Notes under the pieces: model-generated
Seen by the model: only the letters and a program-made list of their open reading frames with translations
Databases searched by the model: none
What the model was told of the DNA's origin: nothing
Program-made: the position numbers and the translations under genes
Shown here: one piece after another, positions 2,879 to 41,148 of the stretch
Layout: the number at the start of each line of letters is the position of its first letter
Position numbering within the stretch: the first letter of the stretch is position 1
Assembly: GCF_030814655.1 (NCBI RefSeq)
Contig: NZ_JAUSVK010000001.1
Location: 5,091,001-5,155,000, forward strand
Direction of reading: 5' to 3'
DNA from: Labrys monachus
GTDB taxonomy: Bacteria > Pseudomonadota > Alphaproteobacteria > Rhizobiales > Labraceae
Length of the DNA: 64,000 nucleotides

Positions 2879-2975
2879 AGGGCGGTCTGGACCCTGCCGG
2901 GGATGGACCCGATAGTGCGTCTCCCGTTATACGAATGAGGCTCTTGCGGGTGGGACCGCCAATCCAGGGGCGATC

Positions 2976-16944: not shown

Positions 16945-17026
16945 TTCGTCGGGATCGGCAGCGCGGCACGGACAGGGGCGTCCGCAGCGAGCACGGCGCA
17001 GCGGTGCCGGTAGGGGGATGCCGATT

Positions 17027-17740: not shown

Positions 17741-17742
17741 GG

Positions 17743-18432: not shown

Positions 18433-18469
18433 GACGAAGGGCGGTGCCGAGCGAACGACGGCCGAGGCC

Positions 18470-19300: not shown

Positions 19301-19509
19301 AGTCCTATCCCCTTTGTGTATGGTGCAGTCCATCGCACGCAAATCTGGTCCTTGCGCACCTTATCGACCCATGCGGATGGCGGCGTTCGCCTGCCTTGTC
19401 GATCCGGACGGGTGATTTCATTCCCGGCGCAGGCTACCCCCGGCGCCGGGATCGACTTTCATAGGCCCGTCGCGGGAGAATCCATGGCCGCCTTCATGCC
19501 GCCTCCCTC

Positions 19510-20598: not shown

Positions 20599-20728
20599 TC
20601 CAGTAATCCTTTTTGGTTCACCCGGCGCCGAGGCCCGGAAAAGATGATCGGCTCGCGCGTCCCGTGCGCCGCCCGACCGAACAGGGCGGCAATCCGCCTG
20701 CGCTCCGCGGCACCTGGAGCGGGACGCT

Positions 20729-21238: not shown

Positions 21239-21270
21239 CGGCCCTTCCCGATCGCTCCAATGCCGTTATG

Positions 21271-21296
21271 ATTGTAGATTATCTACAATCCGTCAA
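21271..21296 (-). promoter_or_regulatory. Promoter with perfect GntR-type operator, ahead of the flavin reductase gene
   Basis: The palindrome ATTGTAGATTATCTACAAT (21271-21289) is a perfect 9-1-9 dyad. On the leftward strand, a -35 box TTGACG (21296-21291) lies one base before it, so the operator fills the spacer and the -10 region. This geometry suits a repressor. The same module, -35 included, recurs at 24814-24839, and a degenerate copy lies at 24904, beside a FadR-type GntR gene. Confidence 0.75.
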
Positions 21297-21337
21297 GACA
21301 AAATCGCGCTGTTCGAGACTGCGCGCTCCGCCGGCGC

Positions 21338-22105: not shown

Positions 22106-22163
22106 GAAAGGCTCCGCGGCGGACTGGTAAGGTGGAATGGAAGGCGCCGGACCTTGTCGACGG

Positions 22164-22829
22164 TCAGCGCTGCTGCTTGCTTTGCAAGTATTTCTCCAGC
22201 CAATGGGCAAGCATCGTGACCGGGTAGGCGATGACGAAATACATCGCGGCGGCGGTCGTCAGCACTTCGAAGGGCCGGTATGTGTTGGTCGCGATCAGGC
22301 GCGCCTGATACATGAGATCGAGGATCCCCAGAGTGGACACCAGGGAGCTTTCCTTGAACAGGCTGACGCTGAGGCTGACGAACACCGGAATCATTGCCCG
22401 CATGGCCTGCGGCAGCGTTATATGGAGAAGGGTCTGCATGCCGCTGAGATCGAGCACATAGGCCGATTCCCGCTGCTCCCTGGGAACGCTCTGCAGGCCG
22501 GAGCGATAGGTTTCGCCGTAAAACGTCGCCGCGTTGAGCGAAAGCGCGGCAACGGCCGAGGGGACGTCGGCGATCTGCAGTCCCGTCACGATGGGAAGCG
22601 CATAATAGACCCAGACGAGCTGGATCAACACCGGCGTTCCCCGGAAGAATTCGACATAGCCGGTGGCGAGGACACGGACGGGCCAGAAGGACGACATCCG
22701 GCACAAGGCGACGGGCACGCCGAGCGCAAATCCCAAGGCGACGCTCGCGATCGTGATCTCGATCGTCAGGATCAGCCCCTGGACGAGTTCGGGTATGTAG
22801 GGGACAACAGCGTTCCACTGCCAATCCAC
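22164..22829 (-). CDS. Polar amino acid ABC transporter permease (single-permease system)
   Basis: This 221-residue membrane protein has about five hydrophobic helices, EFFRGTPVLIQLVWVYYALP and the EAA-like loop QRESAYVLDLSGMQTLL. It is the only permease in this three-gene importer, so a homodimeric channel, as in some glutamine-type systems, is expected. It is separated from its ATPase by the repeat element, but the direction of transcription is the same. Confidence 0.88.
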   Translation of the reverse strand: MDWQWNAVVPYIPELVQGLILTIEITIASVALGFALGVPVALCRMSSFWPVRVLATGYVEFFRGTPVLIQLVWVYYALPIVTGLQIADVPSAVAALSLNAATFYGETYRSGLQSVPREQRESAYVLDLSGMQTLLHITLPQAMRAMIPVFVSLSVSLFKESSLVSTLGILDLMYQARLIATNTYRPFEVLTTAAAMYFVIAYPVTMLAHWLEKYLQSKQQR

Positions 22830-22904
22830 TGTCGCACCTCTCGATTCATTGCGGTTTCAGGTCTGCGCACGGGTTGCAGCCCGGCCGCGTCGCGTATGGC
22901 CCTT

Positions 22905-23010
22905 CCAGAGCAAATTGCGATTTCATCGCATCGCAATTTCTCCATAACTTATTGTTTTGACGTATTTTTATTGATCAAGAAGTCGATCGGCTCTTCTGGA
23001 AAACGCTCTA
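22905..23010. repeat. Rhizobiales-type intergenic palindromic repeat
   Basis: Read leftward, the element begins CTAGAGCGTTTTCC, carries AATACGTCAAAACAATAAG in its centre and ends GCTCTGG, so its ends are near-inverted (TAGAGC and GCTCTGG). It contains a perfect 10-bp hairpin, AAATTGCGAT (22912-22921) with ATCGCAATTT (22930-22939). From memory this closely matches the short dispersed intergenic repeats common in Rhizobium, Mesorhizobium and Brucella genomes. Its right end supplies the stop codon of the ATPase gene. Confidence 0.7.
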
Positions 23011-23772
23011 GGCGCGCAGGCGGTTGGTGAAGTTGCGGATGCGGACATCGCCGCCGCCTGCGAAGAAGGAAGCCGTGTCACCGTCAAAACGCTTGCGCCC
23101 GTTCTCCATGAAGACGACGCGATCCGCGACTTCCTTGACGAAGTCCATCTCATGGCTGGCGACGATCATGGTCATGCCGCGGCGGGCGAGATCCCGCATC
23201 GCATCGAGCACTTCGGCCGTCCGCTCGGGATCGAGGGCGGAGGTGACTTCGTCGAAGAGCATGATCTCCGGATCCATCATCAAGGCCCTGGCGATCGCGA
23301 CCCGCTGGCGCTGCCCTCCGGACAGGGCATAGGGATAGCTCTCGAGCTTGTCGGACAGCCCCATTTGCGCGAGCAGTTCCCGCGCCCTTTCCTGGGCTTG
23401 CGGCCGGGACAGGCGCCCGGTCAGCACCGGCGACAGCGTGAGATTGCGCCGCACCGTCATGTGGCCATAGAGGCTATAGCCTTGAAAAACCATGCCGATG
23501 CGGCGCTTTATGCGATGCCAGCGCGCGATCCGGGCGCGATCGAAGAGCTCGAACCCGCGAGGCTGGCGCTCGAATGCCTCGCCGTCGATGAGAATCTTCC
23601 CCTCGTCCGGATCGATGAGCCTTACGATGCTGCGCAGGACCGAGGTCTTTCCCGAGCCGCTTGGACCGACGAGGGCGATCACCTGTCCGCGCTCGACGGC
23701 CAGGTCGAACCCATCCAGAACCTTGAAAGTGCCGTATGAGACCGACAGCCCCGAAAGGACGACGAGAGACAT
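23008..23772 (-). CDS. Polar amino acid ABC transporter ATPase
   Basis: The 254-residue ATPase has Walker A GPSGSGKTS (36-44), [19 protein letters not shown] and LFDEVTSALDPE. It is in the GlnQ/HisP group. The TAG stop lies inside the terminal TAGAGC of the intergenic repeat, so insertion of that element may have set the present C-terminus (NFTNRLRA). It follows the binding-protein gene and precedes the single permease. Confidence 0.9.
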   Translation of the reverse strand: MSLVVLSGLSVSYGTFKVLDGFDLAVERGQVIALVGPSGSGKTSVLRSIVRLIDPDEGKILIDGEAFERQPRGFELFDRARIARWHRIKRRIGMVFQGYSLYGHMTVRRNLTLSPVLTGRLSRPQAQERARELLAQMGLSDKLESYPYALSGGQRQRVAIARALMMDPEIMLFDEVTSALDPERTAEVLDAMRDLARRGMTMIVASHEMDFVKEVADRVVFMENGRKRFDGDTASFFAGGGDVRIRNFTNRLRA

Positions 23773-23806
23773 CGCTTGGCCTCCAGACCTCGAGCGCCAA
23801 GCGCCG

Positions 23807-24640
23807 TCACTTCATGTAGGATTGCGTGAAGGCCTCGACCTCCCCGTTGTTCAAGAGGTCGGTGATCTCGACGTTGAAGGCGGCGATATCGGTAAAGCAG
23901 GCATCCTTGCGCATCGAGAAGGCGGAACCGGCGACGCTCAGGGCCGGATTGGGCTCCACCACTTTCGTATTGTCCGGATGCAGGGTGTGGTAGTTGCGGT
24001 TGCCCAGCACGTCGAGGAACATCGCGTCCGCCCGCTTGCTCTGGAATGCCAGGATGACCTCGTCGTTGGTCGGAAGCCTGACGATCTTGAAATTGTCGAG
24101 ATGGTTCTTGGCCGCGTAGTCGGTCAGGGCCTTTTCCTGCACGGTGCCGGCCGTCGTCGCGATCTTCATTCCGGCCTTGTTCATGTCTTCGAGGCTCGCG
24201 ACCGGCGCATCGTTGCGGACGACCGCCGTGGCATGATCGGTGAAGTAGGACTCGGTGAAGACGACGGCCAGAGCGCGGGTCGGTGTCGGCGTCGTGGAGA
24301 CGCCGATGTCGTATCGCGATGCGACCAGGCCGGCGATCATGTTGTCCCAGGTGGTGTCGACATAGCGCGGCTCGATGTGCATCGTCGCCGCCCACGCGTT
24401 GAGAATGTCGACCGCGATGCCGCTCCACTTGCCGGTCTTGGGATCCTTGAACGTATGGGGCGAACCGGTCGCGATGCCGAGCGTGACGAAGCCCTGATGC
24501 TGCCACTTGTCGATCATGCAGTTTCCGGGCGCTGATTGGGCGTGCGCGGGCCGGGCGAGGCCAGGTGCAAACGCCATGGCGCCGGCCAGCACGACAGCGC
24601 CTGCCAACCTTCGGGTGGCCGCGGTCAATCGGTATTTCAT
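23807..24640 (-). CDS. Periplasmic binding protein, family 3
   Basis: This 277-residue protein has a long signal peptide with a charged start (MKYRLTAATRRLAG) and cleavage near AHAQS. It then shows the family-3 fold with GFVTLGIATGSPHTFKD, GIAVDILNAWAATM and VSTTPTPTRALAV. An upstream in-frame extension of 52 residues is discarded because it precedes an obvious signal sequence. The promoter with the GntR-type operator lies about 175 bases upstream. It probably recognises the inducing substrate or a close relative. Confidence 0.88.
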   Translation of the reverse strand: MKYRLTAATRRLAGAVVLAGAMAFAPGLARPAHAQSAPGNCMIDKWQHQGFVTLGIATGSPHTFKDPKTGKWSGIAVDILNAWAATMHIEPRYVDTTWDNMIAGLVASRYDIGVSTTPTPTRALAVVFTESYFTDHATAVVRNDAPVASLEDMNKAGMKIATTAGTVQEKALTDYAAKNHLDNFKIVRLPTNDEVILAFQSKRADAMFLDVLGNRNYHTLHPDNTKVVEPNPALSVAGSAFSMRKDACFTDIAAFNVEITDLLNNGEVEAFTQSYMK

Positions 24641-25049
24641 GTCTGACTTCCCCTCGTTTGTTGGCGCCTCGTCCGGACGCTTCCGTCTCGTCGTCACATG
24701 CCGATGCCGGCCTTCGCTCCGAAGAAAAGCGAACGTCGCCTGCGAACGGAGGCTGGCAAGCCTCCCAAATCCGGAAGCCGGCCGCCTCGCGACCATTCCG
24801 AGACAGCGAACAGATTGTAGATAATCTCCAATCTGTCAAGCCGCTATTTGCGGTGTGGCCCGCGTGCGCGCTGGCCTGGCCCGGTGGCGAGCGGCGGGGA
24901 TCGATTGTAGATAGTCTTCAACCAATCGTCGGGGATCGTTGAAAGTCGGGTCTGAACCACGTAGAGCTTGGCGACCCTGACGGCGGGTAGGTTTCGGACT
25001 GGTCGGCGAAGCGCACCAGCCATTGGTCGTGTCTTGATGGAGGATAGAG
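24641..25049. promoter_or_regulatory. Divergent control region with two GntR-type operators
   Basis: This 409-base gap separates the leftward importer from the rightward GntR gene. ATTGTAGAT/ATCTCCAAT at 24814-24832 matches the perfect operator at 21271 with one arm mismatch. It is again followed on the leftward strand by a -35 box (TTGACA, 24839-24834) at identical spacing. A third, weaker copy (ATTGTAGAT at 24904-24912, poor second arm) lies nearer the GntR gene and may serve autoregulation. No open frame in the gap looks genuine. Confidence 0.7.
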
Positions 25050-27088: not shown

Positions 27089-27811
27089 CTATTCGTGGGC
27101 CTTGGCGGCGGAGGGCGGGCTCTCTCGGGCCCGTCCGTCCTCGAGTTCGAGCATCGTATCGAAATATTTCATCCAGCGCGTGTCGTGGGTCACGACGCAG
27201 AGCGCCACGTTGCGGCTGTCCGCCAGCGCCCTGAAGACCTTCATCACCATCTCCGCCCGCGTGCCGTCCAGCGCGGCGGTGGGTTCGTCGGCGAGGATGA
27301 CGGTAGGATCGTTGGCGAGAGCCCTGGCGATCGAAACGCGCTGCTGCTCGCCGCCGGACAGCTGCGAGGGATAGTTGGTGCCGCGATGCCCCATGCCCAG
27401 CGCACCGAGCAGCTCGGCGGCGCGTTTCTGCGCCTGCCTGCGGCCGACATCGTTGATCTGCATGGCGATCGCCACGTTCTCGGCGGCCGTCAGATAGGGA
27501 ATCAGGTTCGCCTTCTGAAACACGAAGCCGAGATGGGTGCGCCTGAAAGCCCGCAAATCGTTGAGCTTCGCACCGGGACGCGAAATCACCTTGCCGTCGA
27601 ACAGAACCTCCCCCGCGGTCGGCGTCTCCAGCAGGCCGGCGATCATCAGGAGCGTCGTCTTCCCCGAGCCGCTGGGCCCGACGATGCCGGTGACGGCACC
27701 GGGCTTCAGGATCAGCGACCCCGAAGCCAGCGCAGTGACCGGCGTTCCGCCGCTGTCATAGATCTTGCTGACATTGCGGACCTCCAAGGTGGCCAGGCGG
27801 CGCGGCGACAT
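27089..27811 (-). CDS. ABC exporter ATPase (LolD/MacB/DevA type)
   Basis: The 240-residue ATPase has Walker A GPSGSGKTT (45-53), LSGGEQQRVSIARALANDP and ILADEPTAALD, the form used with FtsX-type permeases. Its start overlaps the permease stop by one base. It is the last gene of the run from polyketide synthase through membrane fusion protein and permease. It would drive mechanotransmission-type export of a lipid or lipid-linked product through the envelope. The order fusion protein, permease, ATPase equals that of devBCA. Confidence 0.9.
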   Translation of the reverse strand: MSPRRLATLEVRNVSKIYDSGGTPVTALASGSLILKPGAVTGIVGPSGSGKTTLLMIAGLLETPTAGEVLFDGKVISRPGAKLNDLRAFRRTHLGFVFQKANLIPYLTAAENVAIAMQINDVGRRQAQKRAAELLGALGMGHRGTNYPSQLSGGEQQRVSIARALANDPTVILADEPTAALDGTRAEMVMKVFRALADSRNVALCVVTHDTRWMKYFDTMLELEDGRARESPPSAAKAHE

Positions 27812-28962
27812 CAGGCCAGTACCTCCTGGGCGCGGACGGCAAGGGCGCGGCGGATGGCGAACCAGCTGGCGGCGAGACTGAGGGCCATGAGCACCAGGGA
27901 CAGCACGCCGAGGTCGGATGCCGTGATCAGCACGGTTCTGGGGAATCTCGGATAGATCGTGAACGAGATCGCGATGGCCAGGATGAGGCCGCAAAAGCCG
28001 ATCAGCGCGGCTTGCTGCGCGATCATGCCGACGATCACCCGGTCACGCGCCCCGATCAGCTTCAACAGCGATATCTGCGCGACCTTCTCGATCGTCATCG
28101 TATAGATGGTCATCGCGATGACGGCGCAGCAGATGAGCAGGATCATCGTGGTGAAGGCGAGGATCTGGACGCGCAGCTTGCCGAGGCGGCCGTTGAGCAG
28201 GATCTCCTCCTCGTCCTGCTTGGTCAGCACTTCCACATCGCCCCAGCGCTTGATCGAATCGCGCACGACGTCCTTGTCGGCACCCGGCAGGGTCTCGACG
28301 ATGACCGCGGCGATACTGCCGGTGTCGTTGCCCAGGCCCATGCGGTCCCTGCCCTCCTTGGCCGCCCGGTTGAGCAGGATCGCCTCGCTGGGCAGGAGCT
28401 GGTTGATGACCTGCGCATCGGCGATGGTGACGAACAGCAGGCCGTCGCCGCTCATGTCGACCTGCCCGGTCGACACGCCGACGATGGTGTAGGTGTCCTT
28501 GCCGAGCCGGATCTCGTCGCCGACCGCGAAGCCCAGGGTCTTGTCGGCGATGGCCTCATAGCGGTTCGACTGGAAGTAGCGGCCGGCGATCAGCGGGATC
28601 CAGCTGCCGCGGTCGCTCGGAAAATCCACGCCGGTGATCGACATGCGCAAGGGAAGGCCGTCGAATTCGAACTGCTGGTTGTACTGGATGAAGCGCCGCG
28701 TCGCCGCCACGCCCGACACGCCGGCGACACGGCGGTCGAGATTGGCGGGAACGGCGGAGGATTCGGCGAAAGGACCGGACTTGCCGCCCTCGACGACCCA
28801 GAGGTCGGCGCCGACGCCGTCGATGACGACGAGCGCTTCGTAGACGATGCCGCGATACATGCCCAGCATGCCGATCGTCGATGCCATGAGCAGGCCGACG
28901 CCGAACACGGTGAGGACGAACCTCAGCATGTTGTGGCGGATATCTTTGACCGCGAGGTTCAC
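27811..28962 (-). CDS. FtsX-family ABC exporter permease (DevC type)
   Basis: This 383-residue protein has one N-terminal transmembrane helix (near residues 12-35), a large periplasmic domain of about 220 residues (GADLWVVEGGKSGPFAESS onward), and three C-terminal helices with the FtsX coupling stretch EKVAQISLLKLIGARDR. This four-helix layout is that of MacB/LolC/DevC permeases. The GTG start overlaps the fusion-protein stop as GTGA. An upstream open frame is a GC-rich extension. It partners the fusion protein and ATPase beside it. Confidence 0.88.
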   Translation of the reverse strand: MNLAVKDIRHNMLRFVLTVFGVGLLMASTIGMLGMYRGIVYEALVVIDGVGADLWVVEGGKSGPFAESSAVPANLDRRVAGVSGVAATRRFIQYNQQFEFDGLPLRMSITGVDFPSDRGSWIPLIAGRYFQSNRYEAIADKTLGFAVGDEIRLGKDTYTIVGVSTGQVDMSGDGLLFVTIADAQVINQLLPSEAILLNRAAKEGRDRMGLGNDTGSIAAVIVETLPGADKDVVRDSIKRWGDVEVLTKQDEEEILLNGRLGKLRVQILAFTTMILLICCAVIAMTIYTMTIEKVAQISLLKLIGARDRVIVGMIAQQAALIGFCGLILAIAISFTIYPRFPRTVLITASDLGVLSLVLMALSLAASWFAIRRALAVRAQEVLA

Positions 28963-30095
28963 TTGCCCGCCGTCCGGATGGCGACGGACTGGTACTGGAA
29001 CCGGCCGGCCGGGTTCAGCACGACATCGCCGGCGTTCAGGCCGCGCGTGATCTCGATATCGGTGCCGCTGGCATAACCCAGCGAAACCGGCGACCAATAG
29101 GCCCGCCCGTCATGCGCGACCCACAAGCCGACGCGTCCTTCGCTCCTGGCCAGGAAGCGTTGCGGAACGGCGATGCCGGGCGACGGCGATCCGGCTTCGA
29201 TGACGACGTTCGCGCGTTGCCCCACCGCCCAGCTCGCCGGCACTTCGTCCAGTTTCAGATCGACCGTGAACTCGCGCGTCTCCTGGTCGACCTGCCGGCC
29301 GATCCGCAGGATCGAAGCGGGATAAGGCCGCTGCGGATTGGAGGAGAACGCCACCCTGGCGACCTGTCCGGGGTGGAGCGAGGCCATCGCGGATTCGTCG
29401 AATCGCGCAAACACCAGCAGCGATTTGGGGTCGACGATCTGCATGAGCTCGACGCCGGGCGACAGCAGATCGCCCACCGTGCGGCTGCGGGACACCACCA
29501 CGCCGTCGATGGGGGAGCGGATGGTGGTTTCGGCGAGGCGGCTGCGCAATCGCTCGACATCGGCGGCCGCGGCCGCGGCCTGGGCCTTGGCGCGTTCCAC
29601 GGTGACGCCCGCCCGCAGCACCTGGGAGGCCGCCTGCTTCTGGGCGCTCTCGACGGCGTCGAATTCGGATTTGGAAACCGTCTGCTTGCCGAGCAGCGCC
29701 TTCCTGCGGTTGAGGTCCGCCATCGCGGTCGCGGCCGCGATGGCTAGCCGGTCGCCCTCCAGCTGCGACTCCTGCACCGTCTCCTCCGCAGCACGGCTGG
29801 TGGCGACCGCGGAGGCGAGCTGGTATTCGAGCTCGGTCGAGTTGAGCGTGGCCAGGATGTCGCCGGCCTTCACCACATCGTTCTGGTCGACGCGCACCTC
29901 GGCCAGGAACGCCTGGATGCGCGCCGTCACCACGACCTGGTTGTTCGATCCCAGCAGGCCGGGACCGGCGATCTCGCGCACGACCGGGCGCTGCTGGACG
30001 ACATAGGCTTCGACGTCGGCGGGCCAGACATACCAGCCGGAAAAGAGGCCGGCCGCCGCCAGAACGACAAGAAAGAGAAAGATGTAGCGAACCAC
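28959..30095 (-). CDS. Periplasmic membrane fusion protein (HlyD/DevB/MacA type)
   Basis: The 378-residue protein is anchored by one N-terminal helix (residues 4-23). A biotinyl-lipoyl segment and an alpha-helical hairpin rich in Ala, Glu and Gln follow (about 90-190), then the second lipoyl half RSPIDGVVVSRSRTVGDLLSPG and a beta-barrel domain. It would link the FtsX-type permease to an outer-membrane channel, which is not encoded nearby. It starts 55 bases after the polyketide synthase stop, so it is probably on the same transcript. Confidence 0.9.
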   Translation of the reverse strand: MVRYIFLFLVVLAAAGLFSGWYVWPADVEAYVVQQRPVVREIAGPGLLGSNNQVVVTARIQAFLAEVRVDQNDVVKAGDILATLNSTELEYQLASAVATSRAAEETVQESQLEGDRLAIAAATAMADLNRRKALLGKQTVSKSEFDAVESAQKQAASQVLRAGVTVERAKAQAAAAAADVERLRSRLAETTIRSPIDGVVVSRSRTVGDLLSPGVELMQIVDPKSLLVFARFDESAMASLHPGQVARVAFSSNPQRPYPASILRIGRQVDQETREFTVDLKLDEVPASWAVGQRANVVIEAGSPSPGIAVPQRFLARSEGRVGLWVAHDGRAYWSPVSLGYASGTDIEITRGLNAGDVVLNPAGRFQYQSVAIRTAGK

Positions 30096-30150: not shown

Positions 30151-33100
30151 TCAAACCGCCGCCTGTTCGTCCGCATCTGCTTTCGATTGTCCCGCCAGGA
30201 GCCGCTCGACGATTTCATGCAGGATGTCGCGCGCCTCCGCTTCGTCATAGCCGCGCGTATCGTATATGAAAAACAGCCCCAGGCCATTCTCCGTCGGATA
30301 GGTTCGCACATCCAGCTCGTAGAGCGTCGGCCTTTCTCGCCGCATGTCGGGCAGCGGCGTCACCTTCACCATGCCGAGATCGAGTTCGCCGCTGGCATGG
30401 GCCCTCTGCAGCGGAGCCGACTGGGTGGCCTGCGTCCACCGTTCCACCGTCTGGTTGCCGGCGAGGAAGAGGGCGGTGTAGGAGCCCTTGGCCACGACGT
30501 CGTCATGGAAGGCGCCGACGAAGTTCGAGTCCATGAAGGGCCCGAACTGGATGGCCTCGTCGACCCCTTCTCCCAGGGAGACGGCCAGCGCTTCGATCGT
30601 GTCGAACCGGGCCAGATAGGCCCGGACGGGCACGTCCGAGGCGACGAAGTTGACGTAGTTCTCCAGCCGCCGGTCATGGCGCAAGGCCGCTGGGACCTGC
30701 AGGATCATGTCGTCGACGCCGCCGCGCGCACCGACCGTCTGGGCGAACGCCGCGATGATCATGGCCGTTTCCGTGGTGCCGGCAATTCTGGCCCGCCTGC
30801 GCAGTTCATCCCGCTCATCGGTCGGTATCGTGATCGTCAGCAGGCCGCCGGCGCTGCCGTCGAAGAAATTCACGTTCGTCGGCAATCCCTTCGCCTTGCG
30901 CCCGAGATTGGGAATCGGCGGCAGGGGCTCGGCGAAGACCTTGTGCAGGAATTCCTCGCGCCGCTCGAACGAACCGGGCTTTCCGACATGGTCGAAATCC
31001 CGGATGAAGCGGTCGATGTCCATCTCCACCGGGTTGAGCGGCAGGCCAAGATAGGCCTTGACGGTCTCCTCGACGATGAGGCCGAGGGAATAGCCGTCGA
31101 TGACGAGATGATGCGCCTTGGCGACGATGATGTCGCTCTCCGTGCCGAACCGGATGACGGTGGTGCGGAACATCGGCGCGTCGATGTCGATATGTTCCTG
31201 CGCGAGCTCGCTCGCCCGTTCCAGCGCGGCCGCTTCGTCGGCGACTTCTTCGACCTTGAGGAACTGCGTCGGCGCCCTCTCCAGATAGGCGCCGTAGCCG
31301 CCCGCCTTGCGGAAGAAGCGGGTGCGCATCACTTCGTGCCGCGCCATGACCGTCTCGAGGGCCCGCCTGAGGCGGTCGACGTCCATCTGCGGCCGAATCT
31401 TGAACTCCTTGCTCACGAGGCCGGTGCCGAGCGCATAGGCATTCGCGTCCGGATGATCCTGCAGGTACAGCACCCCCAATTGCGTGCTGGTCACCGGGAT
31501 CTCTCTTTCGACGTTGGGCAGGCCGTCGAGGGGAGAGCGCTCGACCTCCGCCCCCGCCGGCTGCTGGCCGGACCATTCGCGGACGGTCCAGCGAACGCTG
31601 CCGGGCACGAGCGGGCCGGGCGTTTCCAGCAGCCCCGCAAGCTCGCCGAGAAAGTCCTCGAACAGGAGCTGCGCCGTCGCTTCCGTCACCACGTCGCTGT
31701 CCACGGCCAGCCGGCACAGGACACCCGCGTCGTCGACTGCGACGGCGAGCTGGATCTCGTGCGCAGACACCGCGACCGCGTCGAGGGGATCGTCGGGCGT
31801 GCCGGGCGCCGTGATCTCGCCGCTGCCGATGAAGGCGAAGCCGAACTGGCGCAGCGCCACATGGCGAATGCGCAAGCTCTCCTCGAACGCCTGTTCCAGG
31901 GAGGAGGTATCGACGGCACGGTGCGCGCGGCCGTTGGCGTCGGCGCGCCCGATCCGCCTGACCAGATCCTCGCCGGCTTGATCGACAGCGCGCAGCACGA
32001 TCGGATACGAGCCGTCCAGAGGGCCGATCAGGCCGGCCGGCGCGCCGTTCCCGCGCTCGGTGAACCATTTGTCGACGACGATCGATCCGAGGGCGAAGCG
32101 GCCGGCCAGGGCCTTGGCGTAAGCGGCCAGGAAGCGCTCGCTCGACAGCCCCGGCGTCCCCGCGAAGGAAGCGGCGGGAATGATGCTCTGCATGATGGCG
32201 ATATCGCCGCGGTTCGACCCCATGCCGGTGGGAGATGCGGCACGACGACGCCCCGGGATCGGCGCGATGGCTGGTGCGTGATGCAGGATCTCCTTCCAAT
32301 AGGAGAGGTCGCGGCGGTGCTCGGCCGATCCGGGCTCGGGATACGCCCCGCGGACATAGGCGCCGAAACCGCCGCCCGTCTCGACGGCGTCTTCATCCTC
32401 CCGCGCCAGCCCTGCGAGCAGGAGATGCACCGACAAGGCGTCGGCCGCCGCCCGATGGGCGCGCACCTGCAGGTCGTGGCTGCCGTCCTGGCGCGCGCAT
32501 AGGCCGACCCGCCACAACGGACCGGGCAGCGTCACCATGGCCAGGCGTGTGCCCGGCAGGAGCACTTCGAGGGCGGGATCGCCGTCGAAGCCGATCTCGA
32601 CCGCCCCGGACGCCGAGACCGCGCCCGTCATCCGCAGGGCGTCGTTGCTCGCGACCAGACGGGCCAGCCTTGCCGCCAGCGCGGCGAGCGAGGTGCCGGG
32701 CGCGACGTTCGTCTCGCCGAAGACCTGGTTGTCGGCCATGGCGACGGCCGAGGACATCGGCCGGGTGTCGAGCATGATGGCGTGGACCTGGCGGCCGAGC
32801 GGCCGGAAGCTCTCCTGCGCCACGCCGCCGGCCGCACTCGTCCGCGCCGCGGACGCCTGCACCGCAGCCGCCTTGAGCTTGGCCTCGAATGCCGAGGCGA
32901 CGAGGCGCGAGAGCCCCGCGATCGTCGGCGACTGCAGGAACTTGGCGACGGGTATGTCGACCTCGACCTGCGCCTCGACGCGGTTCTTCAGCTCGAACGA
33001 CGACAGGGAATCCAGCCCGAGCTCGCTGAGCTTGCGGTCGTCCGCCAGGGCGCTCGCCTCGACCTTCAGGACCTTGGCGACTTCGCGCCGGATCATGTCG

Positions 33101-36100
33101 GCGAGCAGGTCGTTCCACGCCTCGCGCGGAGCGGCCGCCAGCTCGGCCTGGATACGGGAGCGTCCCCCGCTTCTTTCGCCCAGCAGCTGCGAGATCCTCG
33201 GATTGGCCGCGGCTCCCGGATTCGTGCGTGCAATGGCCGCCCAGTCGATATTGGCAAAGCCGAGATTTTCCGACCGGGCGCGCAACAGGATCGCCAAAGC
33301 CGCAGCCGCCTCGGAATCCTGCACCGGCTTGATGCCGACGCTGTCGAGATAATTGGTCATCGCCTCCGACCGGGCGACGAATCCGCTGCCGGCAATCATG
33401 CCCCAGGCGATGGAGGACGCGGCCATGCTGCGGCCCCGGCGATAGGTGGCGATCGCATTCAGGACCGAATTGGCGGCGGTGTAATTGGCCTGCCCCGACG
33501 AGCCGATCACCTGGGCGATCGACGAGAAATTCACGAAGAATTCCAGGGGTATGCCATGCGCGACCACGGCGGCGTGCAGGTTCCATCCGCCCGCGATCTT
33601 CGGCCGCAGCACGCGGTCGATCTTGTCGGCGTCGAGCTGCGAGACGAAGGCGTCCTCGATCACGGCCGCGCCGTGCACGATGCCGCGCAGCGGGTGCATG
33701 CCCCCGCCATGTTCGGCGACCAGCCTGTCGACGGCCGCGGCGTCGGTCACGTCGAGCGCGGCGCGAACGACGCGGGTGCCCCGCTGCTCCATGGCCTCGA
33801 TGGCGACCGCCGCCTGGGCGTCGGGCTCGCCGCTTCGATTGGCCAGGATGAGGGTTCCCGCCCCGCTTTGGCTGAGCCAGTCGGCGATGGCGACGCCGAA
33901 GCCCTTGAGCCCGCCGGTCACCAGATAGGAGGCCTCGGCGGAAACGGCGAAGTCCGAGCCGAGATCGAGTTCGATGTCCAGCGAGGGCTCGTCGAAGGTG
34001 ACGATGACCTTGCCGATATGCTGGGCGCGAGACAGCATGCGCATGGCTTCCGCCGCCCGCGAGGCCGGAAAGCGCGTCGCCTCCAGCGGCTTGTAGGCGC
34101 CGGAAGCAACCTTCCCTGCCACTTCCGCCAGCAATTGCCTGAAGAGCTTCGGCCGCTCCACGGGAAGCGTCGAGAGATCGATGACCGAATAGGCGTTGTT
34201 GCGATAGAGCGAGCGCAGCCCGATCGGCTTGTCGTCGGCGAGATCGCGCTTGCCGATCTCGACCATGCGGCCGAAGGGCGCCAGGCATTCGAGGCTCTTG
34301 TCGATGCCATGGCCCGACAATGCGTTCAGCACGACGTCCACGCCGTGGCCGCGCGTCAGGGCGCGTACCTCGTCGGCGAAGTCGAGGGCGCGGGAGTTCA
34401 TCGCCACGTCCACGCCCAATGTCTTGAGGAAGGCGCGTTTGGCGTCGCTGCCGGCCGTCCCGAAGACCTTTGCGCCGACATCACGCGCGACCTGAATGGC
34501 GGCGAGGCCGACACCGCCCGACGCCAGATGGATGAGGGCGGTCTCGTCCTCGGCCAGCCTGCCGACATGGGTGAGGGCATAGTGCGCGGTCAGGAAGGCG
34601 GTCGGCAGGGTCGCGGCGTCGATCAGGTCGATACCGTCCGGCACGCGCATGACGACATCCGCGCCGATCTTGGCGAAGCGCCTGAGATAGCCCTTGCCGA
34701 TGCCCATGATGCGATCGCCGGGCTTGAGGTCGGTCACCTCATGGCCGACCTCGCGGACGGTGCCGGCGAATTCCAGGCCGAGATTGCGCCAATACGCCTC
34801 GTCATTCTCCAGTTCGTCCGGCAGGATGCTCGTCGCCGCCATGATGTCGCGGAAGTTCAGGCCGACCGCCGCGACCTCGACCATCACCTCGTCGGCCGCA
34901 AGAACCGGATCGGCGATTTCACGCAGCACGATGTTGTCGATGGTGCCGGGCGCCGTCATGGTGACGGCGAAGTTGGAGGGATCGCGCCGGGTCTCCAATG
35001 TCCGCCGCGACGGCGCCAGTTCCTGCAATGCCAGCCTTTCCAGGCGAGGCACGTAACGATCGGCGCCGCGCAGGACGAATTCCGTTTCCGCTGTATCCTC
35101 CAGGACAGCATCCGAGACCGAGCTTCCCGATTGCAGGGCGGCGCCGTCGGCGTCGACGAGGCGAAGGCTCAGGCCCTTGCATTCGTTGGCTATGGTGCGG
35201 GCGACGCCGATCAGGGCGCTCTCGCCCAGGCCGGAAAGGCTCATCGGCCCGTCGCCTTCCACCACCCGGCTTCCCGAGGTGACGACGACCAGTTCCGGAC
35301 GGGGATCGGGCAGGGCCTGCAGGCGGTCGAAGACCTTCGCCAGGGTGATCAGTTGATGGACGACCGGGGTGATCGCCGCCATCAGCTCTTCGCCGCCGGT
35401 TCCCTCGGTGGGCGTCCCGCCGGCCGCCGCACTGAAGAGGATGCCTCCGCTCTGCTCGGACTTGGCCGTGAACGCGCGGACGATGGCGAGAGCTTCATCG
35501 GTGTCGAGGGTCAGGAACGGCGCGGCATCGGCGATCTCCACCGTCGCGCCGCGCCTGACGAGTTCGGCGAGGGTCGCTTCGAGGCGCTGCGTTCCATCGC
35601 CCACCACCAGCCAGTGCGCACACCGCACGGACGGCGCGGGGGGCTTTGGCTCCTGCTTCTGGAAATGCTCCTCGAACACGCTGGCGCCCGAGCCGGCGGC
35701 ATGCTTCGTGCGGCCGCCCCCGATCTTGCCGAGCGCCTTCGTCTGCAGATTGTCGATGACGATCAGCGGCTTTCCTTCCGGAGAGAACACGCTGAACTGC
35801 ATCGAGTCCTGGTCCAGGCCGGGCTGGATGCCGACGATCACCTCGGCCGTCAGCGGGGCTCCCAGCTGGATCTTGCGGGCGCCTGTCGGCAGGCGCAGCT
35901 GATACTGGGTCTTGTCCTCGTTCGCGGGCGGGAGCGGCTCCCCTGGCGTCCATGAGCCGTCCAGATGCGAAGCAAGGCCGATGCCTGCCTGCAGCACGGC
36001 GTCCAGCAATCCGGGGAAGGCGAAATAATGCTTGGCGGGTTCCGGCTCCCGGCTCGACAGCCTGGCGATCAGGCGGTGGCCGTCGATGTGGAGCGCATTC

Positions 36101-39100
36101 AGCGACTGGAAGGTCGGGCCGTATTCGAGGCCGTGCCGTTCCGCCAGGCGATAGAATTCCGTCTTGTCGGTCAGGGACGGCCAATCGTGGAGAATGTCGT
36201 CCGACGCCGGTGCGAGATCATATTTGTGGCTGAAACCATAGGCTTCGGCACGCGTCCGCCAGCCGTCTTCCGAACCGCGGTGGAGCGTCGAGATGCGCAG
36301 GCGGCTGCCGACCGGGTCGAACGTCGTCGTGAAGATGATGACGTCGTCTTCGGCGATCGACAGGGCTTCGTAAAGCTTGAAATCGCGCAATTCCACGGAT
36401 TCGGAGCCGAAATACTCGCGCAGCGCGGCACCCATGGCTTCGATATAGCCGACGGCCGGAAATAGGCAGTCGCCGCTGACGCGATGGTCGGCCAGATATT
36501 TGAAGCCCCGGAGGGAGATCTCGTTCGTCCAGGACGGACCGGCCGTGAAATCACGCCGTCCGAGCAGGGGATGGCGGGGCGCATCGAAAAGGAAGCTCTT
36601 GGTTTCCTCGGAGAGGCTGAGCAGATGCTGGTTGTTCCAGGGCAGCTTGGGGGCGGCGACGTGGCCGCCTGGCGCCTTCGGCCGCTCGAACTCGACGCCG
36701 CTGACATACAGCCTGCCCTCGGCCCGTGCCAGCGTCCAGAAATCGTCCGCGGTGCGATCCAGCGAGTTCGCCGCGACGACGTCAGCGCCGCGTTCCTGCG
36801 AGATGCCCCGGATGAGCGGCGTCAGCGTGCGGTGCGGACCGACTTCCAGGAAGGTGTTGATGCCGAAATCGAGGGTAAAATCCAGGGCCTTGGTGAAGCT
36901 GACGGGCTGGCGCAGATTGTCCCACCAATAGGCAGCGTCGAACTTCGTTTCGAAGATGCCGGTGACGGTGGAGACGATCGGCAGGCTGCCGCCCTTCCAG
37001 GCCACCGGACCGAGTTCGCCGAGGAACCACTCCTTGCAGTCTTCCAGATGGGCGCTGTGCCATCCGAAATCCATGGTCATGCGGCGGGCCATCGCGTCGG
37101 GATAGGCTTCCGCGACCTTGGCCAGCACCTCGACGACGCCGTTCTCCATGCCCGAGATGGTCTGCGCGATCGGGCCGTTATAGGCCGCGATGACCACGCT
37201 GTCGTCGCCCGGCAGGAAGGGAGCGAGCTGCTGGACCGTCAGGCCGATCGTGGCCATCGCGCCGCGCCGCGTGCTCTTGAGCGGGATGAGCCCGCGCGTG
37301 GCGATGATGCGGGCCGCCGTCTCGATATCGATGATACCCGAAACATAGGTCGCCGCGACCTCGCCGAAACTATGGCCGATCAGGAGTTCCGGGCGGACGC
37401 CCATCTTCTTCCAGCGCTCGTAGAGCGAGATCTGCGTGGCGAAGATGGAGGCCTGGGTGACATCGGCGTCGTTGATGCGGGTCTTCGTCTCGTCCCGCAG
37501 CATCTCCTCGACGGTCGACCACCCGACCATCGGCCGGAGCACCTCGTCGAACATGTCGGCCGTCCGGCGGAACGCGGCGTCCTCCTTGAGGAGGCGGCGT
37601 GCCATGGCCCACCATTGACCGCCCTGGCCGGAGAACGCCACGGCGAGACGCCGATTGGAGGCCCGGCCGGTGATGATGGTCGGCCCGGTGGCATTCTGAT
37701 CGAGGCTGCCTTTCGCCAGGGCGCGCAGCTGGGCCTGGACCGCCGAGCGCTCCGGCTCGACGACCAGCGCGGCGCGCTGGGCGAAATTGTCGCGCGCGCT
37801 GCGCATATGGGTGGCGAGGTCCTCGACGGAGGTGTCCTGCAGGGACCCGCCGTCCTCCAAGGCGTCCGCAAGGCTGCCGGCCCAAAGCTCCAAGGCCGCC
37901 GTGCTGCCGGCCGAGACCGGAAGGGCGATCGGATGGCCGACCTCTGCCGATCTCGGCATCCGGACCGCCGCAGCGGCGCGCCCCTGCCATTCTTCGACGA
38001 CGATCGAGGCATTGGTGCCGCCGAAACCGAAAGAGTTGACCACTGCCAGGACGGGCCGCCCGCGATGATCAATCGGGACCGGCTTCGTCGCGACGGTCAT
38101 GTTGAGCGCGTCGAAGGGGATATTGGGGTTCGGCCGCTCGAAATTCCGGTTGGGCAGCACGACGCCGTGCCCGACGGTCAGCAGGGTCTTGATGAACCCC
38201 GCGATGCCGGACGCCGATTCGAGATGGCCGAGATTGGGCTTGAACGATCCGACATGGATCGGCCCCGGCCGGGAGCTCGTACCGAACACACGGCCGATGG
38301 CCGTCGCCTCGATGGGGTCGCCGATCGGCGTGCCGGTACCATGCGCCTCGACATAGTCGACATCCGAGGGATCGACGGAAGCGCCGTCCATGAGCGCCTC
38401 CAGCATCGCCTGCTGCGCCACACCGCTCGGAGCCGTCAGCGTCGGCGTATAGCCGTCCTGGTTGACCATCGAATGGCGGATCACCCCATAGATGCGGTCA
38501 CCATCCGCGATGGCGCGGTCGAGCAGCTTGAGCAGGACGAGCCCGCAGCCTTCGCCGCGGATGAAGCCGTCGGCCCTTTCGTCGAACGTATAGATGCCAC
38601 CCGTCGGCGAGAGCATGTTGGCGCTGGAGAAGGCGACGAACGGGCCCGGATCGAGCATGCAGTTGACGCCGCCGGCCAAGGCCATGTCGCAAGTGCCCAT
38701 GCTCATGTGGCGCACGGCCTGGTCGAGGGCGACGAGCGCCGACGAGCATGCGGTATCGACCGCGATGCTCGGCCCTCTCAGATTGAATCGGTGCGATATC
38801 CGATTGGCCGCGATCGAGAACGCAGAGCCCGTGCCGGCGAAGATATCGCCGCCGCTCGTGCGCCCCCGGCGCAGGTTCTGCGCAAAATCATTGGTGGATA
38901 TGCCGATGAACACTCCCGTGCGGACCCGCTGCAGATCGGCCAGGGTGCGGTCGGCGTCCTGGACGGCCTCGTAGGCCACCTGCAGCGCCAGGCGCTGCTG
39001 CGGGTCCATCGATGTCACCTCCCGAGGCGACATGTCGAAGAAACTCGGGTCGAATCCGAAGACATCGTTGCCGAGAAAGCCGCCCCAGCGCGAGCGCATC

Positions 39101-39321
39101 TTTCCCGGCGCGTCAGGATCCGCATCGTAGAAGGCGTCGATGTTCCAGCGATCGGCCGGAATATCGACGATGCCGCATTTCTTCTCCAGAAGAAAATTCC
39201 AGTACGACTCAGCGTCATGGATCGCGCCGGGAAACCGACAACCTATCCCGATGACCGCTACAGCCTGCCGAGTGGACTCGACGATATTTTCAGCAATCTG
39301 GCCGCCACGATGGATATTCAT
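30151..39321 (-). CDS. Reducing type I polyketide synthase with tandem C-terminal condensation domains
   Basis: This 3056-residue megasynthase has the following domains by motif. Ketosynthase is at about 18-445 (active Cys192 in DTACSSA, His327, His366). Acyltransferase is at 558-870 (GHSFGE, Ser651, and FGWHSAH where malonyl types have HAFH). Dehydratase is at 915-1195 (HRVSGDCLFP, His946; LLDAVLQ, Asp1107). A structural ketoreductase half is at about 1230-1430. Enoylreductase is at 1453-1775 (GLNFRDIM; ASGGVGLAAIQ). Ketoreductase is at 1797-1980 (TGGLKGFG; NFSS; Tyr1947 in QANYTAAN). Acyl carrier is at 2070-2145 (LGLDSL, Ser2105). The last 870 residues are two condensation-type domains. The first (about 2180-2575) has HRAAADA where HHxxxDG is expected; the second (about 2605-3045) has intact HHLVIDG (2737-2743). 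No thioesterase or methyltransferase is seen. Iterative synthesis of a reduced acyl chain with condensation-type ester or amide release is the likely role. It lies in line with a phosphopantetheinyl transferase upstream and an exporter downstream. Confidence 0.93.
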   Translation of the reverse strand: MNIHRGGQIAENIVESTRQAVAVIGIGCRFPGAIHDAESYWNFLLEKKCGIVDIPADRWNIDAFYDADPDAPGKMRSRWGGFLGNDVFGFDPSFFDMSPREVTSMDPQQRLALQVAYEAVQDADRTLADLQRVRTGVFIGISTNDFAQNLRRGRTSGGDIFAGTGSAFSIAANRISHRFNLRGPSIAVDTACSSALVALDQAVRHMSMGTCDMALAGGVNCMLDPGPFVAFSSANMLSPTGGIYTFDERADGFIRGEGCGLVLLKLLDRAIADGDRIYGVIRHSMVNQDGYTPTLTAPSGVAQQAMLEALMDGASVDPSDVDYVEAHGTGTPIGDPIEATAIGRVFGTSSRPGPIHVGSFKPNLGHLESASGIAGFIKTLLTVGHGVVLPNRNFERPNPNIPFDALNMTVATKPVPIDHRGRPVLAVVNSFGFGGTNASIVVEEWQGRAAAAVRMPRSAEVGHPIALPVSAGSTAALELWAGSLADALEDGGSLQDTSVEDLATHMRSARDNFAQRAALVVEPERSAVQAQLRALAKGSLDQNATGPTIITGRASNRRLAVAFSGQGGQWWAMARRLLKEDAAFRRTADMFDEVLRPMVGWSTVEEMLRDETKTRINDADVTQASIFATQISLYERWKKMGVRPELLIGHSFGEVAATYVSGIIDIETAARIIATRGLIPLKSTRRGAMATIGLTVQQLAPFLPGDDSVVIAAYNGPIAQTISGMENGVVEVLAKVAEAYPDAMARRMTMDFGWHSAHLEDCKEWFLGELGPVAWKGGSLPIVSTVTGIFETKFDAAYWWDNLRQPVSFTKALDFTLDFGINTFLEVGPHRTLTPLIRGISQERGADVVAANSLDRTADDFWTLARAEGRLYVSGVEFERPKAPGGHVAAPKLPWNNQHLLSLSEETKSFLFDAPRHPLLGRRDFTAGPSWTNEISLRGFKYLADHRVSGDCLFPAVGYIEAMGAALREYFGSESVELRDFKLYEALSIAEDDVIIFTTTFDPVGSRLRISTLHRGSEDGWRTRAEAYGFSHKYDLAPASDDILHDWPSLTDKTEFYRLAERHGLEYGPTFQSLNALHIDGHRLIARLSSREPEPAKHYFAFPGLLDAVLQAGIGLASHLDGSWTPGEPLPPANEDKTQYQLRLPTGARKIQLGAPLTAEVIVGIQPGLDQDSMQFSVFSPEGKPLIVIDNLQTKALGKIGGGRTKHAAGSGASVFEEHFQKQEPKPPAPSVRCAHWLVVGDGTQRLEATLAELVRRGATVEIADAAPFLTLDTDEALAIVRAFTAKSEQSGGILFSAAAGGTPTEGTGGEELMAAITPVVHQLITLAKVFDRLQALPDPRPELVVVTSGSRVVEGDGPMSLSGLGESALIGVARTIANECKGLSLRLVDADGAALQSGSSVSDAVLEDTAETEFVLRGADRYVPRLERLALQELAPSRRTLETRRDPSNFAVTMTAPGTIDNIVLREIADPVLAADEVMVEVAAVGLNFRDIMAATSILPDELENDEAYWRNLGLEFAGTVREVGHEVTDLKPGDRIMGIGKGYLRRFAKIGADVVMRVPDGIDLIDAATLPTAFLTAHYALTHVGRLAEDETALIHLASGGVGLAAIQVARDVGAKVFGTAGSDAKRAFLKTLGVDVAMNSRALDFADEVRALTRGHGVDVVLNALSGHGIDKSLECLAPFGRMVEIGKRDLADDKPIGLRSLYRNNAYSVIDLSTLPVERPKLFRQLLAEVAGKVASGAYKPLEATRFPASRAAEAMRMLSRAQHIGKVIVTFDEPSLDIELDLGSDFAVSAEASYLVTGGLKGFGVAIADWLSQSGAGTLILANRSGEPDAQAAVAIEAMEQRGTRVVRAALDVTDAAAVDRLVAEHGGGMHPLRGIVHGAAVIEDAFVSQLDADKIDRVLRPKIAGGWNLHAAVVAHGIPLEFFVNFSSIAQVIGSSGQANYTAANSVLNAIATYRRGRSMAASSIAWGMIAGSGFVARSEAMTNYLDSVGIKPVQDSEAAAALAILLRARSENLGFANIDWAAIARTNPGAAANPRISQLLGERSGGRSRIQAELAAAPREAWNDLLADMIRREVAKVLKVEASALADDRKLSELGLDSLSSFELKNRVEAQVEVDIPVAKFLQSPTIAGLSRLVASAFEAKLKAAAVQASAARTSAAGGVAQESFRPLGRQVHAIMLDTRPMSSAVAMADNQVFGETNVAPGTSLAALAARLARLVASNDALRMTGAVSASGAVEIGFDGDPALEVLLPGTRLAMVTLPGPLWRVGLCARQDGSHDLQVRAHRAAADALSVHLLLAGLAREDEDAVETGGGFGAYVRGAYPEPGSAEHRRDLSYWKEILHHAPAIAPIPGRRRAASPTGMGSNRGDIAIMQSIIPAASFAGTPGLSSERFLAAYAKALAGRFALGSIVVDKWFTERGNGAPAGLIGPLDGSYPIVLRAVDQAGEDLVRRIGRADANGRAHRAVDTSSLEQAFEESLRIRHVALRQFGFAFIGSGEITAPGTPDDPLDAVAVSAHEIQLAVAVDDAGVLCRLAVDSDVVTEATAQLLFEDFLGELAGLLETPGPLVPGSVRWTVREWSGQQPAGAEVERSPLDGLPNVEREIPVTSTQLGVLYLQDHPDANAYALGTGLVSKEFKIRPQMDVDRLRRALETVMARHEVMRTRFFRKAGGYGAYLERAPTQFLKVEEVADEAAALERASELAQEHIDIDAPMFRTTVIRFGTESDIIVAKAHHLVIDGYSLGLIVEETVKAYLGLPLNPVEMDIDRFIRDFDHVGKPGSFERREEFLHKVFAEPLPPIPNLGRKAKGLPTNVNFFDGSAGGLLTITIPTDERDELRRRARIAGTTETAMIIAAFAQTVGARGGVDDMILQVPAALRHDRRLENYVNFVASDVPVRAYLARFDTIEALAVSLGEGVDEAIQFGPFMDSNFVGAFHDDVVAKGSYTALFLAGNQTVERWTQATQSAPLQRAHASGELDLGMVKVTPLPDMRRERPTLYELDVRTYPTENGLGLFFIYDTRGYDEAEARDILHEIVERLLAGQSKADADEQAAV

Positions 39322-39805: not shown

Positions 39806-40507
39806 TCAGGCCCCGGCGAGCAGGTCCGCAGGAGATACCGGGCGCCACTCGACGACGGCGTCGGCCGCGCCATACCAGGCAAGCGCCAGGAAATGCGCAT
39901 CATCCGCAGCACGTTGGTGAAAGCACCATTTGCCGCTGTCACCCAGCGCCGGATCGCAGAACGATACGCGCAAGGGCTCGAAGAAGAAGGAAAAATCGGT
40001 GAGCTGCTGCGTCAGCCCTCGCCCGCTCGCCTTGACGAAGGCCTCCTTCAGCGTCCAGAGGCGACAGAACCCGCGCGGCCTCTCCGCTGCCGGCAGGTCC
40101 TGCAGCCAGCGCCGTTCGGAAGCGGAAAATACGCTCGGCGCGATCTCGAACGGAGGCGCGAGGCGCACCTGCTCGACGTCGACACCGACCTCCAATGTCT
40201 TTGCGACGGCGCAGCAGACCAGGCCGGGACAATGGGAGATGTTGAAGTGCAGATCCGGCACGGACCGCACCCGCGGCTTTCCCCAGGGACCCGGATCGAA
40301 GCGCCAATCGGCGGGCCGCCGCGGCTCCGCCATCGACAGGGCCAATCGCTTCAGCGCATGGGCCGCGATGTAGCTGCGCCGATGGATCTCGAAGGCGAAC
40401 CGCGCAGCAGACGCCCGTTCGGCGTCGTCCAGCAGATCGAGCAGCCGCCCTTGCACGAGCTCCAGCCCGGGATCGATCCTCGCCGTGCAGACCAGGATTG
40501 TCTTCAC
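39806..40507 (-). CDS. Sfp-type 4'-phosphopantetheinyl transferase
   Basis: This 233-residue enzyme loads the phosphopantetheine arm of coenzyme A onto carrier proteins. Visible family motifs are FNISHC (88-93), GVDVE (108-112, magnesium ligands) and WTLKEAFVKA (151-160). A GTG preceded by AGGGAG is taken as the start; the longer open frame upstream overlaps the YbaK-type gene and lacks similarity. It lies upstream of the polyketide synthase on the same strand and is the obvious activator of its carrier domain (Ser2105). Confidence 0.88.
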   Translation of the reverse strand: MKTILVCTARIDPGLELVQGRLLDLLDDAERASAARFAFEIHRRSYIAAHALKRLALSMAEPRRPADWRFDPGPWGKPRVRSVPDLHFNISHCPGLVCCAVAKTLEVGVDVEQVRLAPPFEIAPSVFSASERRWLQDLPAAERPRGFCRLWTLKEAFVKASGRGLTQQLTDFSFFFEPLRVSFCDPALGDSGKWCFHQRAADDAHFLALAWYGAADAVVEWRPVSPADLLAGA

Positions 40508-40689
40508 CTTGCTCCCTGCCGGATGCCGCCGATCGGAGACATGTCCGAAAACCGTCCGGCCGCGGCGGCCCGCGTCCTCGAATGGACGGCCAGCAAGCGC
40601 AAAGCATCGTGCGAATGTCAATTCCCGGCGGGCATCCGGTCCCGGCCTCGCCGGCTCGGTTGGCGCATCGGCCCGGCCCACGCCACGCG

Positions 40690-41148
40690 CTACCCCTCGC
40701 AGACGTCCACCCACGCCGCTCCCACCAACGCCGCCAGGCGAAGGGGATCGATGCGCATGGCGGTGTGCGTCGAACCGCCCGCCGGCACCACGATGTCGAA
40801 AGCCTTCAGGCCGACATCGCAATAGATCGGCAGGGGAGTGGCAAGCCCGAACGGGCAGACGCCGCCGACCGGATGCCCGGTTATGGCCACGGTCTCCTCG
40901 GCGGGGAGCATCCTCGCCTTACCGCCGAGCGCGGCCTTGATCTTCTTGTTGTCCAGGCGGGAATCGCCGCATGCGACCAGCAGGAGCCTGCAGTCGCCGA
41001 CCCTCAGCGACAATGTCTTGGCAATCTGCGCCGGCTTGATGTTCCAGGCCGCCGAGAGCGTCGCCGTCTCGCTGTTCCGATCCAGTTCGACAATCGCGAT
41101 ATCCGGTGCCTTTTCGGCCAGGAAGGCTCGAACCGATTCGACGCTCAT
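40690..41148 (-). CDS. YbaK/EbsC-family aminoacyl-tRNA deacylase-like protein
   Basis: The 152-residue single-domain protein is of the prolyl-tRNA-editing (INS) superfamily. The conserved lysine lies in AQIAKTLSLRV, and GHPVGGVCPFGL is the family signature. Such proteins hydrolyse mischarged Cys-tRNA or Ala-tRNA. It is upstream of the phosphopantetheinyl transferase on the same strand with a gap of about 180 bases, so co-transcription is possible, but a link to polyketide synthesis is not implied. Confidence 0.88.
   Translation of the reverse strand: MSVESVRAFLAEKAPDIAIVELDRNSETATLSAAWNIKPAQIAKTLSLRVGDCRLLLVACGDSRLDNKKIKAALGGKARMLPAEETVAITGHPVGGVCPFGLATPLPIYCDVGLKAFDIVVPAGGSTHTAMRIDPLRLAALVGAAWVDVCEG

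Follow-up and report, generated by a model that had tools for sequence, protein, structure and literature searches.

What purpose does a dead domain serve at the end of a megasynthase? The 64,000-nucleotide stretch of the Labrys monachus genome analyzed here (the window) encodes on its reverse strand, in a single stop-free frame (30151..39321), a type I polyketide synthase (PKS) of 3056 amino acids whose carrier protein is followed by two tandem condensation-fold (C-fold) domains, D1 and D2. Pfam places KS at residues 20-492, AT at 563-876, DH at 917-1199, ER at 1476-1774, KR at 1797-1977 and ACP (PP-binding) at 2077-2141, and the protein then ends ACP-D1-D2, with D1 at residues ~2173-2585 (31567..32805, reverse strand) and D2 at residues ~2605-3042 (30196..31509, reverse strand). 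These limits match those of a preliminary description of the locus to within about 10 residues, and the motif residues named there were found again, namely H2289-R2290 and D2294-A2295 in D1 (R2290 codon at 32452-32454, reverse strand), and H2737-H2738, D2742-G2743 and the latch-like stretch NFVASDVPVR in D2 (H2738 codon at 31108-31110, reverse strand). The thioesterase-free end is likewise borne out, as a Pfam scan of the whole protein shows none. The closest solved PKS is mycocerosic acid synthase (MAS; 9d2z, E 2.9e-265) and the best NCBIfam model is NF041183 (Pks2), which the protein matches with 1066 bits over residues 20-2126, below the MAS/Pks2 equivalog cut-off of 2400 bits.

Whether D1 is a condensation fold at all depends on how it is searched. 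At its curated cut-off, the Pfam Condensation model (PF00668) finds residues 2605-3042 alone (108 bits) and misses the window D1, which scores 14.6 bits against a cut-off of 30.6. Across the family, 12 of 14 D1 copies match the same model at E <=0.1 (best 4.6e-12), and a profile built from all 14 aligns along most of its length with solved domains of the C superfamily, including the epimerase (E) domain of PvdL (1.2e-15) and the X-domain of glycopeptide nonribosomal peptide synthetases (NRPSs; 1e-10). AlphaFold2 models D1 alone with a pLDDT of 87.6 and a pTM of 0.88, and the best 50 of 300 Foldseek matches of this model (E <=0.001) are, by title, entries for NRPSs or PKSs that have C-superfamily domains, counting CmnI, which we presume to contain one; among the matches listed, the release domain of the enacyloxin PKS (6cgo) ranks first and the X-domain third. 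By profile, predicted structure and structural search, D1 therefore has the two-lobed CAT-like fold of the C superfamily, about 420 residues long, so that the two condensation folds of the preliminary description stand, both complete, and a single-fold reading, although it is what Pfam alone gives for the window copy, is rejected. Modeled together, D1 and D2 reach a pLDDT of 82.2 and a pTM of 0.51, and their mutual placement is unsure because of this pTM. Two further assignments of D1 were tried and dropped: membership in the PapA5 family, as one of 14 D1 rows matched, weakly (0.012), and retention of the acidic residue in EGHGRE, a motif of E domains, for which the HMMER alignment gives no backing.

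The family as recognized here comprises 17 loci: the window, two from Mesorhizobium, six from Xanthobacter (one incomplete, L057), and G094, G008, G029, G201, G290, G486, G1136 and G917. All are alphaproteobacterial by kinship labels or record names and they span at least two orders. The L. monachus genome holds one match to the PKS tail; in four other species of the genus the tail search gave weak matches to other C domains in three and none in one, and a KR-ACP query had no match at 1e-40 in these four species. In evenly drawn samples, members were recognized in at least six of 397 genomes of the order, two of 385 of the class and three of 398 of the phylum, counts that are lower bounds, as scoring was confined to a few candidates in each genome and inspection to part of the matches. 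Single-sequence scans of the genome_contigs and viral_contigs collections found no relatives, and an alignment-based scan (A1) returned eight loci, which are the Mesorhizobium and Xanthobacter members. Further matches from the order and class that were placed in trees grouped with other C domains, G917 excepted, and one candidate member, G336, was rejected as a different kind of protein.

D1 is readable in 16 of these 17 loci, the exception being G290, in which the N-lobe is lost. The catalytic HHxxxDG motif is absent from the window D1, which reads HRAAADA, and the catalytic second histidine is missing from 15 of the 16 readable rows. Its place is taken by Arg in 11 (the window, two Mesorhizobium, six Xanthobacter, G094 and G008), by Phe in G486 and by Ala in G029, G1136 and G917, while G201 apparently retains it (KHLAID) in a shaky alignment with an adjacent gap; the motif Asp is kept in all 16. 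Within the 11 nearest relatives RA[AV]AD is invariant, preceded by His in 10 and by Gln in G094. The expectation that the arginine would be conserved among homologues is thus confirmed, as all 11 have it and none of them keeps HHxxxDG, and a local mutation confined to the window copy is rejected on the same count.

An inactive C fold that follows a carrier and carries HRxxxD is already known in the glycopeptide NRPS X-domain (4tx2), and the D1 profile aligns its HRxAAD onto HRIAADD of that structure. The X-domain motif is given as HRxxxDD in the relevant passage of PMC11546977; the window D1 shares HRxxxD and lacks the last D, and the reference X rows of our trees read HRILADD and HRIAADA. A Streptomyces chartreusis plasmid record (L118, 12001-13233) carries an X-type domain that reads HRIAADAQS, with Ala after Asp as in the window D1. 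According to PMC11546977, the X-domain recruits P450s, which gives a dead C fold a non-catalytic role. D1 differs in that a live C fold follows it and that no P450 was found among the Pfam-scanned open reading frames, which cover part of the window. A tree with D1 and the two X references as one clade is also rejected (p-AU 0.002), and with it the assignment of D1 as a true X-domain; the tree says that the HRxxxD of D1 arose separately, as far as sequence comparison can tell.

To place both domains, we built a tree of 71 rows, 40 of them reference C, E and X domains, in which D1 forms one clade (100/99), D2 together with a stand-alone protein from G917 forms another (100/99), and the two join apart from all references (99/95). 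The references are C folds that a script extracted from the loci retrieved in the searches, with E and X labels assigned by motif (one labeled C sits inside the E clade); 119 were reduced to 76 by similarity, and a further cut removed eight rows with long branches along with roughly half of those labeled C. A quick tree of 105 rows recovers the D1 and D2 clades again and joins them at 87 only, with one row labeled C inside the D1 clade, which is the D1 of G917. On these trees, whose references were picked without regard to PapA, wax ester synthase, starter and fungal C domains, tandem duplication is the favored origin of the pair.

A different origin has to be weighed against duplication. The preliminary description had regarded the tandem as unusual, and as a claim that two C folds after a carrier are unprecedented this does not hold: NRPS E-C didomains such as PvdL E2-C3 have them, as does the terminal E-CT pair of IvoA, although in these pairs, unlike here, the first fold is an epimerase. 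The PvdL and IvoA tandems come without a PKS module upstream. The IvoA pair is described in PMC11546977. D1-D2 could accordingly be an E-C didomain captured by a PKS, with D1 a former E domain devoid of epimerase activity and D2 derived from the C domain behind it. PvdL supplies the best solved match of both profiles, its E2 domain for D1 and its C domain for D2 (7.8e-41), the five best Foldseek matches of the tandem model are NRPS chains with an E-C pair, and a tree with D1 and E as one clade is compatible with the data (p-AU 0.304). The free tree, however, joins D1 with D2 to the exclusion of the reference C, E and X domains. The E motif is HHxxxDxxSW, and none of the 15 D1 rows that can be read at its end shows the SW (G201 has a gap there). 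A tree that groups D2 with after-E C domains is also rejected, weakly (p-AU 0.042, three references, two of them directly behind E). We regard such a capture as unlikely, though it carries real weight.

D2 presents the opposite picture to D1 in the window, where the catalytic motif is present as HHLVIDG. Of 14 fused D2 rows, 11 retain the second His, as does the stand-alone protein of G917, and 10 have the full HHxxxDG, Xanthobacter oligotrophicus having Tyr for the first His; the incomplete L057 copy, which is outside the tree, reads HHAIFDG. In three related loci the D2 has Glu at the catalytic His, with FEGVADG in G201 (L044), FELVADG in G290 (L043) and CEFISDG in G1136 (L109). This Glu type is, as read from the motifs, a second and reciprocal inactivation within the family, and release by D2 is for that reason not universal. 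The D2 of X. oligotrophicus (L056, 11273-12658) stands apart in another way, being 70% identical to that of X. autotrophicus DSM 432 (L058) with a dS of 0.48, compared with 90-100% identity and a dS of 0.14-0.24 for the other PKS domains measured in this pair; the D2 tree conflicts with the D1 tree, and the domain looks to have been exchanged as a cassette by recombination.

D2 does look like a releasing domain, as had been proposed. The closest known arrangement is that of the mycobacterial MAS/Pks2 and PapA5, in which a PKS with the same KS-AT-DH-ER-KR-ACP order hands its chain to PapA5, a separate acyltransferase, according to the passage of PMC12370991 on these enzymes; here, in contrast, the C fold lies in cis behind an extra, inactive one and the PKS scores 1066 bits against the equivalog cut-off of 2400. 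D2 may be an acyl release domain in the PapA5 role because the PKS is nearest to MAS, whose chains PapA5 transfers. PapA5 describes a role here and not family membership, as matches to its models and structure are absent or weak: the window D2 has no match to NCBIfam PapA5 models at E 0.01, two of 15 D2-type rows match NF006787 (best 1.7e-5), and the solved PapA5 structure matches the PKS tail weakly (1.7e-4). Nor does D2 belong to the wax ester synthase/DGAT family TIGR02946, against whose cut-off of 309.95 bits the window copy scores 15.2, with four of 15 D2-type rows matching at E 0.01 (best 2.3e-4). Release of a polyketide by a C fold is also known from enacyloxin. In that system the release domain is a stand-alone protein that contains one C fold.

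The rate at which D1 evolves bears on what it does. In Nei-Gojobori estimates over six pairs, some with a sequence in common and with rough values in parts of two because synonymous distances exceed 1, the dN/dS of D1 is 0.20-0.33 throughout, and that of D2 is 0.44 for X. oligotrophicus versus X. autotrophicus DSM 432 and 0.085-0.164 for the other five pairs. The corresponding ranges are 0.06-0.11 for KS, 0.06-0.23 for DH and 0.14-0.27 for the non-catalytic linker ahead of ER, and in all six pairs D1 evolves at 0.9-1.8 times the rate of this linker and exceeds KS or AT by a factor of 2.4-4.5. These values suggest that D1 is under purifying selection at a rate nearer to a structural region than to KS or AT, a soft argument because the range of the catalytic DH overlaps that of the linker. 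By dN/dS alone, a spacer or a slowly decaying D1 may fit as well, and a fast-evolving yet active D1 is possible.

A further reading would make D1 an enzyme with altered chemistry, using an HRxxxD active site for, e.g., a hydrolytic or editing step, which would explain why RA[AV]AD is fixed in the nearest relatives beyond what the fold alone demands. The Arg is nevertheless confined to one clade, and no single residue can be catalytic family-wide because the second-His place varies between clades (Phe in one locus, Ala in three); the excess over the KS and AT rates in every pair also speaks against it, and we consider this reading improbable. Simple decay, with D1 as functionless baggage, could account for its being faster than most other domains and for the loss of the N-lobe in G290, but agrees poorly with a dN/dS well below 1 in all six pairs, with a predicted full fold, with its spread over at least two alphaproteobacterial orders and with its retention in G029 and G917, whose PKSs have no D2 attached.

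Decay was also addressed from a different direction, because tail-based searches could not have revealed relatives that lack D1. A KR-ACP query run against 347 genomes of the order, a sample that overlaps largely with the 397 above, matched 81 genomes at 1e-40 and six at E <1e-80. These six (the window, G094, G008, G029, G290 and G201; E 3.3e-85 or better, 44-64% identity, the window itself aside) are all known members and all carry D1, that of G290 without its N-lobe. The next match follows after a gap, at 34% identity and E 9.5e-59, and no close relative devoid of D1 was found above this gap in the 347 genomes; the D1 count covers the top six, the other 75 genomes having matches of 29-40% identity, mostly in shorter frames. 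With D1 present in six of six close relatives found by a query blind to the tail, decay is very improbable.

D1 as a dimerization or spacing module, independent of any partner in trans, is harder to dismiss. VibF offers a precedent in its C1 domain, a C fold that is inactive and reportedly causes dimerization of the subunit, a structural role like that proposed here for D1. VibF is an NRPS siderophore enzyme that contains no PKS. A rate at or above that of the structural linker fits such a module. Type I PKSs of this kind, however, already dimerize through KS-AT-DH, so that an extra dimer contact would be unneeded, and the tandem model gives no reliable interdomain arrangement at its pTM of 0.51. 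We would put this explanation, like capture of an E-C pair, among the unlikely ones that still deserve attention.

The surroundings of the gene provide a further line of evidence. On the same strand, the order is a 4'-phosphopantetheinyl transferase of the ACPS superfamily upstream of the PKS (39806..40822, reverse strand; PF01648, 4.1e-19; start codon uncertain), the PKS, then, 55 bp beyond it, an HlyD-type membrane fusion protein (28959..30095, reverse strand; PF13437, 2.2e-20), a MacB_PCD/FtsX permease (27811..29097, reverse strand; PF12704 and PF02687), which overlaps the HlyD gene and whose start is probably placed too far upstream, and an exporter ABC ATPase (27089..27994, reverse strand; PF00005, 9.6e-34). 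All three parts of an HlyD/FtsX-MacB/ABC exporter, MacAB- or DevBCA-like, are thus present in one run, and in every one of the 10 complete HR-clade loci they adjoin the PKS, L057 ending too early. The phosphopantetheinyl transferase has tblastn matches in five other family loci (L041, L042, L045, L051 and L052). Elsewhere in the window, ABC importer genes (16177-24796; SBP_bac_3 binding proteins, BPD_transp_1 permeases and two ATPases) surround a luciferase-like monooxygenase, a flavin reductase and a short-chain dehydrogenase.

Outside the HR clade the neighborhoods vary. In G917 (L119, 3473-16761) the PKS ends with D1 and a stand-alone C protein of the D2 clade, with HHAISDG, begins 9 bp on, followed in the same run by a sulfotransferase, an MMPL permease and a LolA-like gene, an arrangement that we take to resemble mycobacterial sulfolipid gene logic. 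D2 is absent from G029, where an alpha/beta hydrolase lies 110 bp downstream of the PKS and ABC, FtsX and HlyD genes are present. G1136 has a sulfotransferase and an FtsX permease near the PKS, and neither HlyD nor FtsX of the window exporter had a match in the locus stretches examined for G201, G290 and G486.

The two folds, their motif states and conservation, the selection regime and the neighborhood are direct outcomes of computation, and the explanation that we prefer, at somewhat better than even confidence, joins an iterative reducing PKS of the MAS type, a releasing acyltransferase (D2), a non-catalytic C fold (D1) and an adjacent exporter. The PKS would act iteratively, as a fully reducing mycocerosic-acid-synthase-type enzyme, and build what is probably an acyl chain, carried by its ACP. 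D2 would play in cis the part that PapA5 plays in trans, passing the chain through H2738 to a hydroxyl or amino acceptor to form a putative ester or amide. D1, probably an old C-fold relative that has lost its catalytic His and would take no part in condensation, may have been kept beside the ACP for structural or docking purposes, to hold the ACP, D2 or a putative trans partner, and the HlyD/FtsX/ABC machine next door probably exports the product.

The strongest argument for this reading is a natural series in which D2 can be fused, encoded by a separate gene (G917), absent (G029) or inactivated (G201, G290, G1136), with D1 remaining part of the PKS in each case. The outcome of the KR-ACP query agrees with it as well. 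As D1 persists in loci that have no fused D2, its role cannot depend solely on a D2 in cis. The suggestion that D1 is a scaffold for D2 therefore survives in part: a rate like or slightly above that of the linker and retention in G029 and G917 indirectly favor a scaffold, judging from sequence, and service to D2 exclusively does not fit. An acceptor-binding gate for D2, the other role suggested there, stays hypothetical. Going further, D1 might represent a distinct class of non-catalytic C folds on lipid PKSs, for which we know of no name, that arrived independently at an X-like His-to-Arg change and docks beside the ACP, recruiting an acceptor enzyme or the exporter and so coupling synthesis, release and export; as a whole we hold this extension to be rather doubtful. 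Docking of an exporter by D1 is a fair though hypothetical idea in so far as contact between a PKS and a lipid transporter has been reported, for PpsE and MmpL7 (PMC1238737).

Open-access literature searches found no title or abstract describing a PKS with a dead-plus-live C-fold tail, a silence that is no proof of its being undescribed; the architecture is a new arrangement of known parts. In some Mesorhizobium and Xanthobacter it points to the making, and probably the export, of a lipid that is unfamiliar to us. Through the natural series, moreover, and in harmless soil organisms such as Xanthobacter, the question of what a dead megasynthase domain is for, which can usually not be tested, becomes directly testable.
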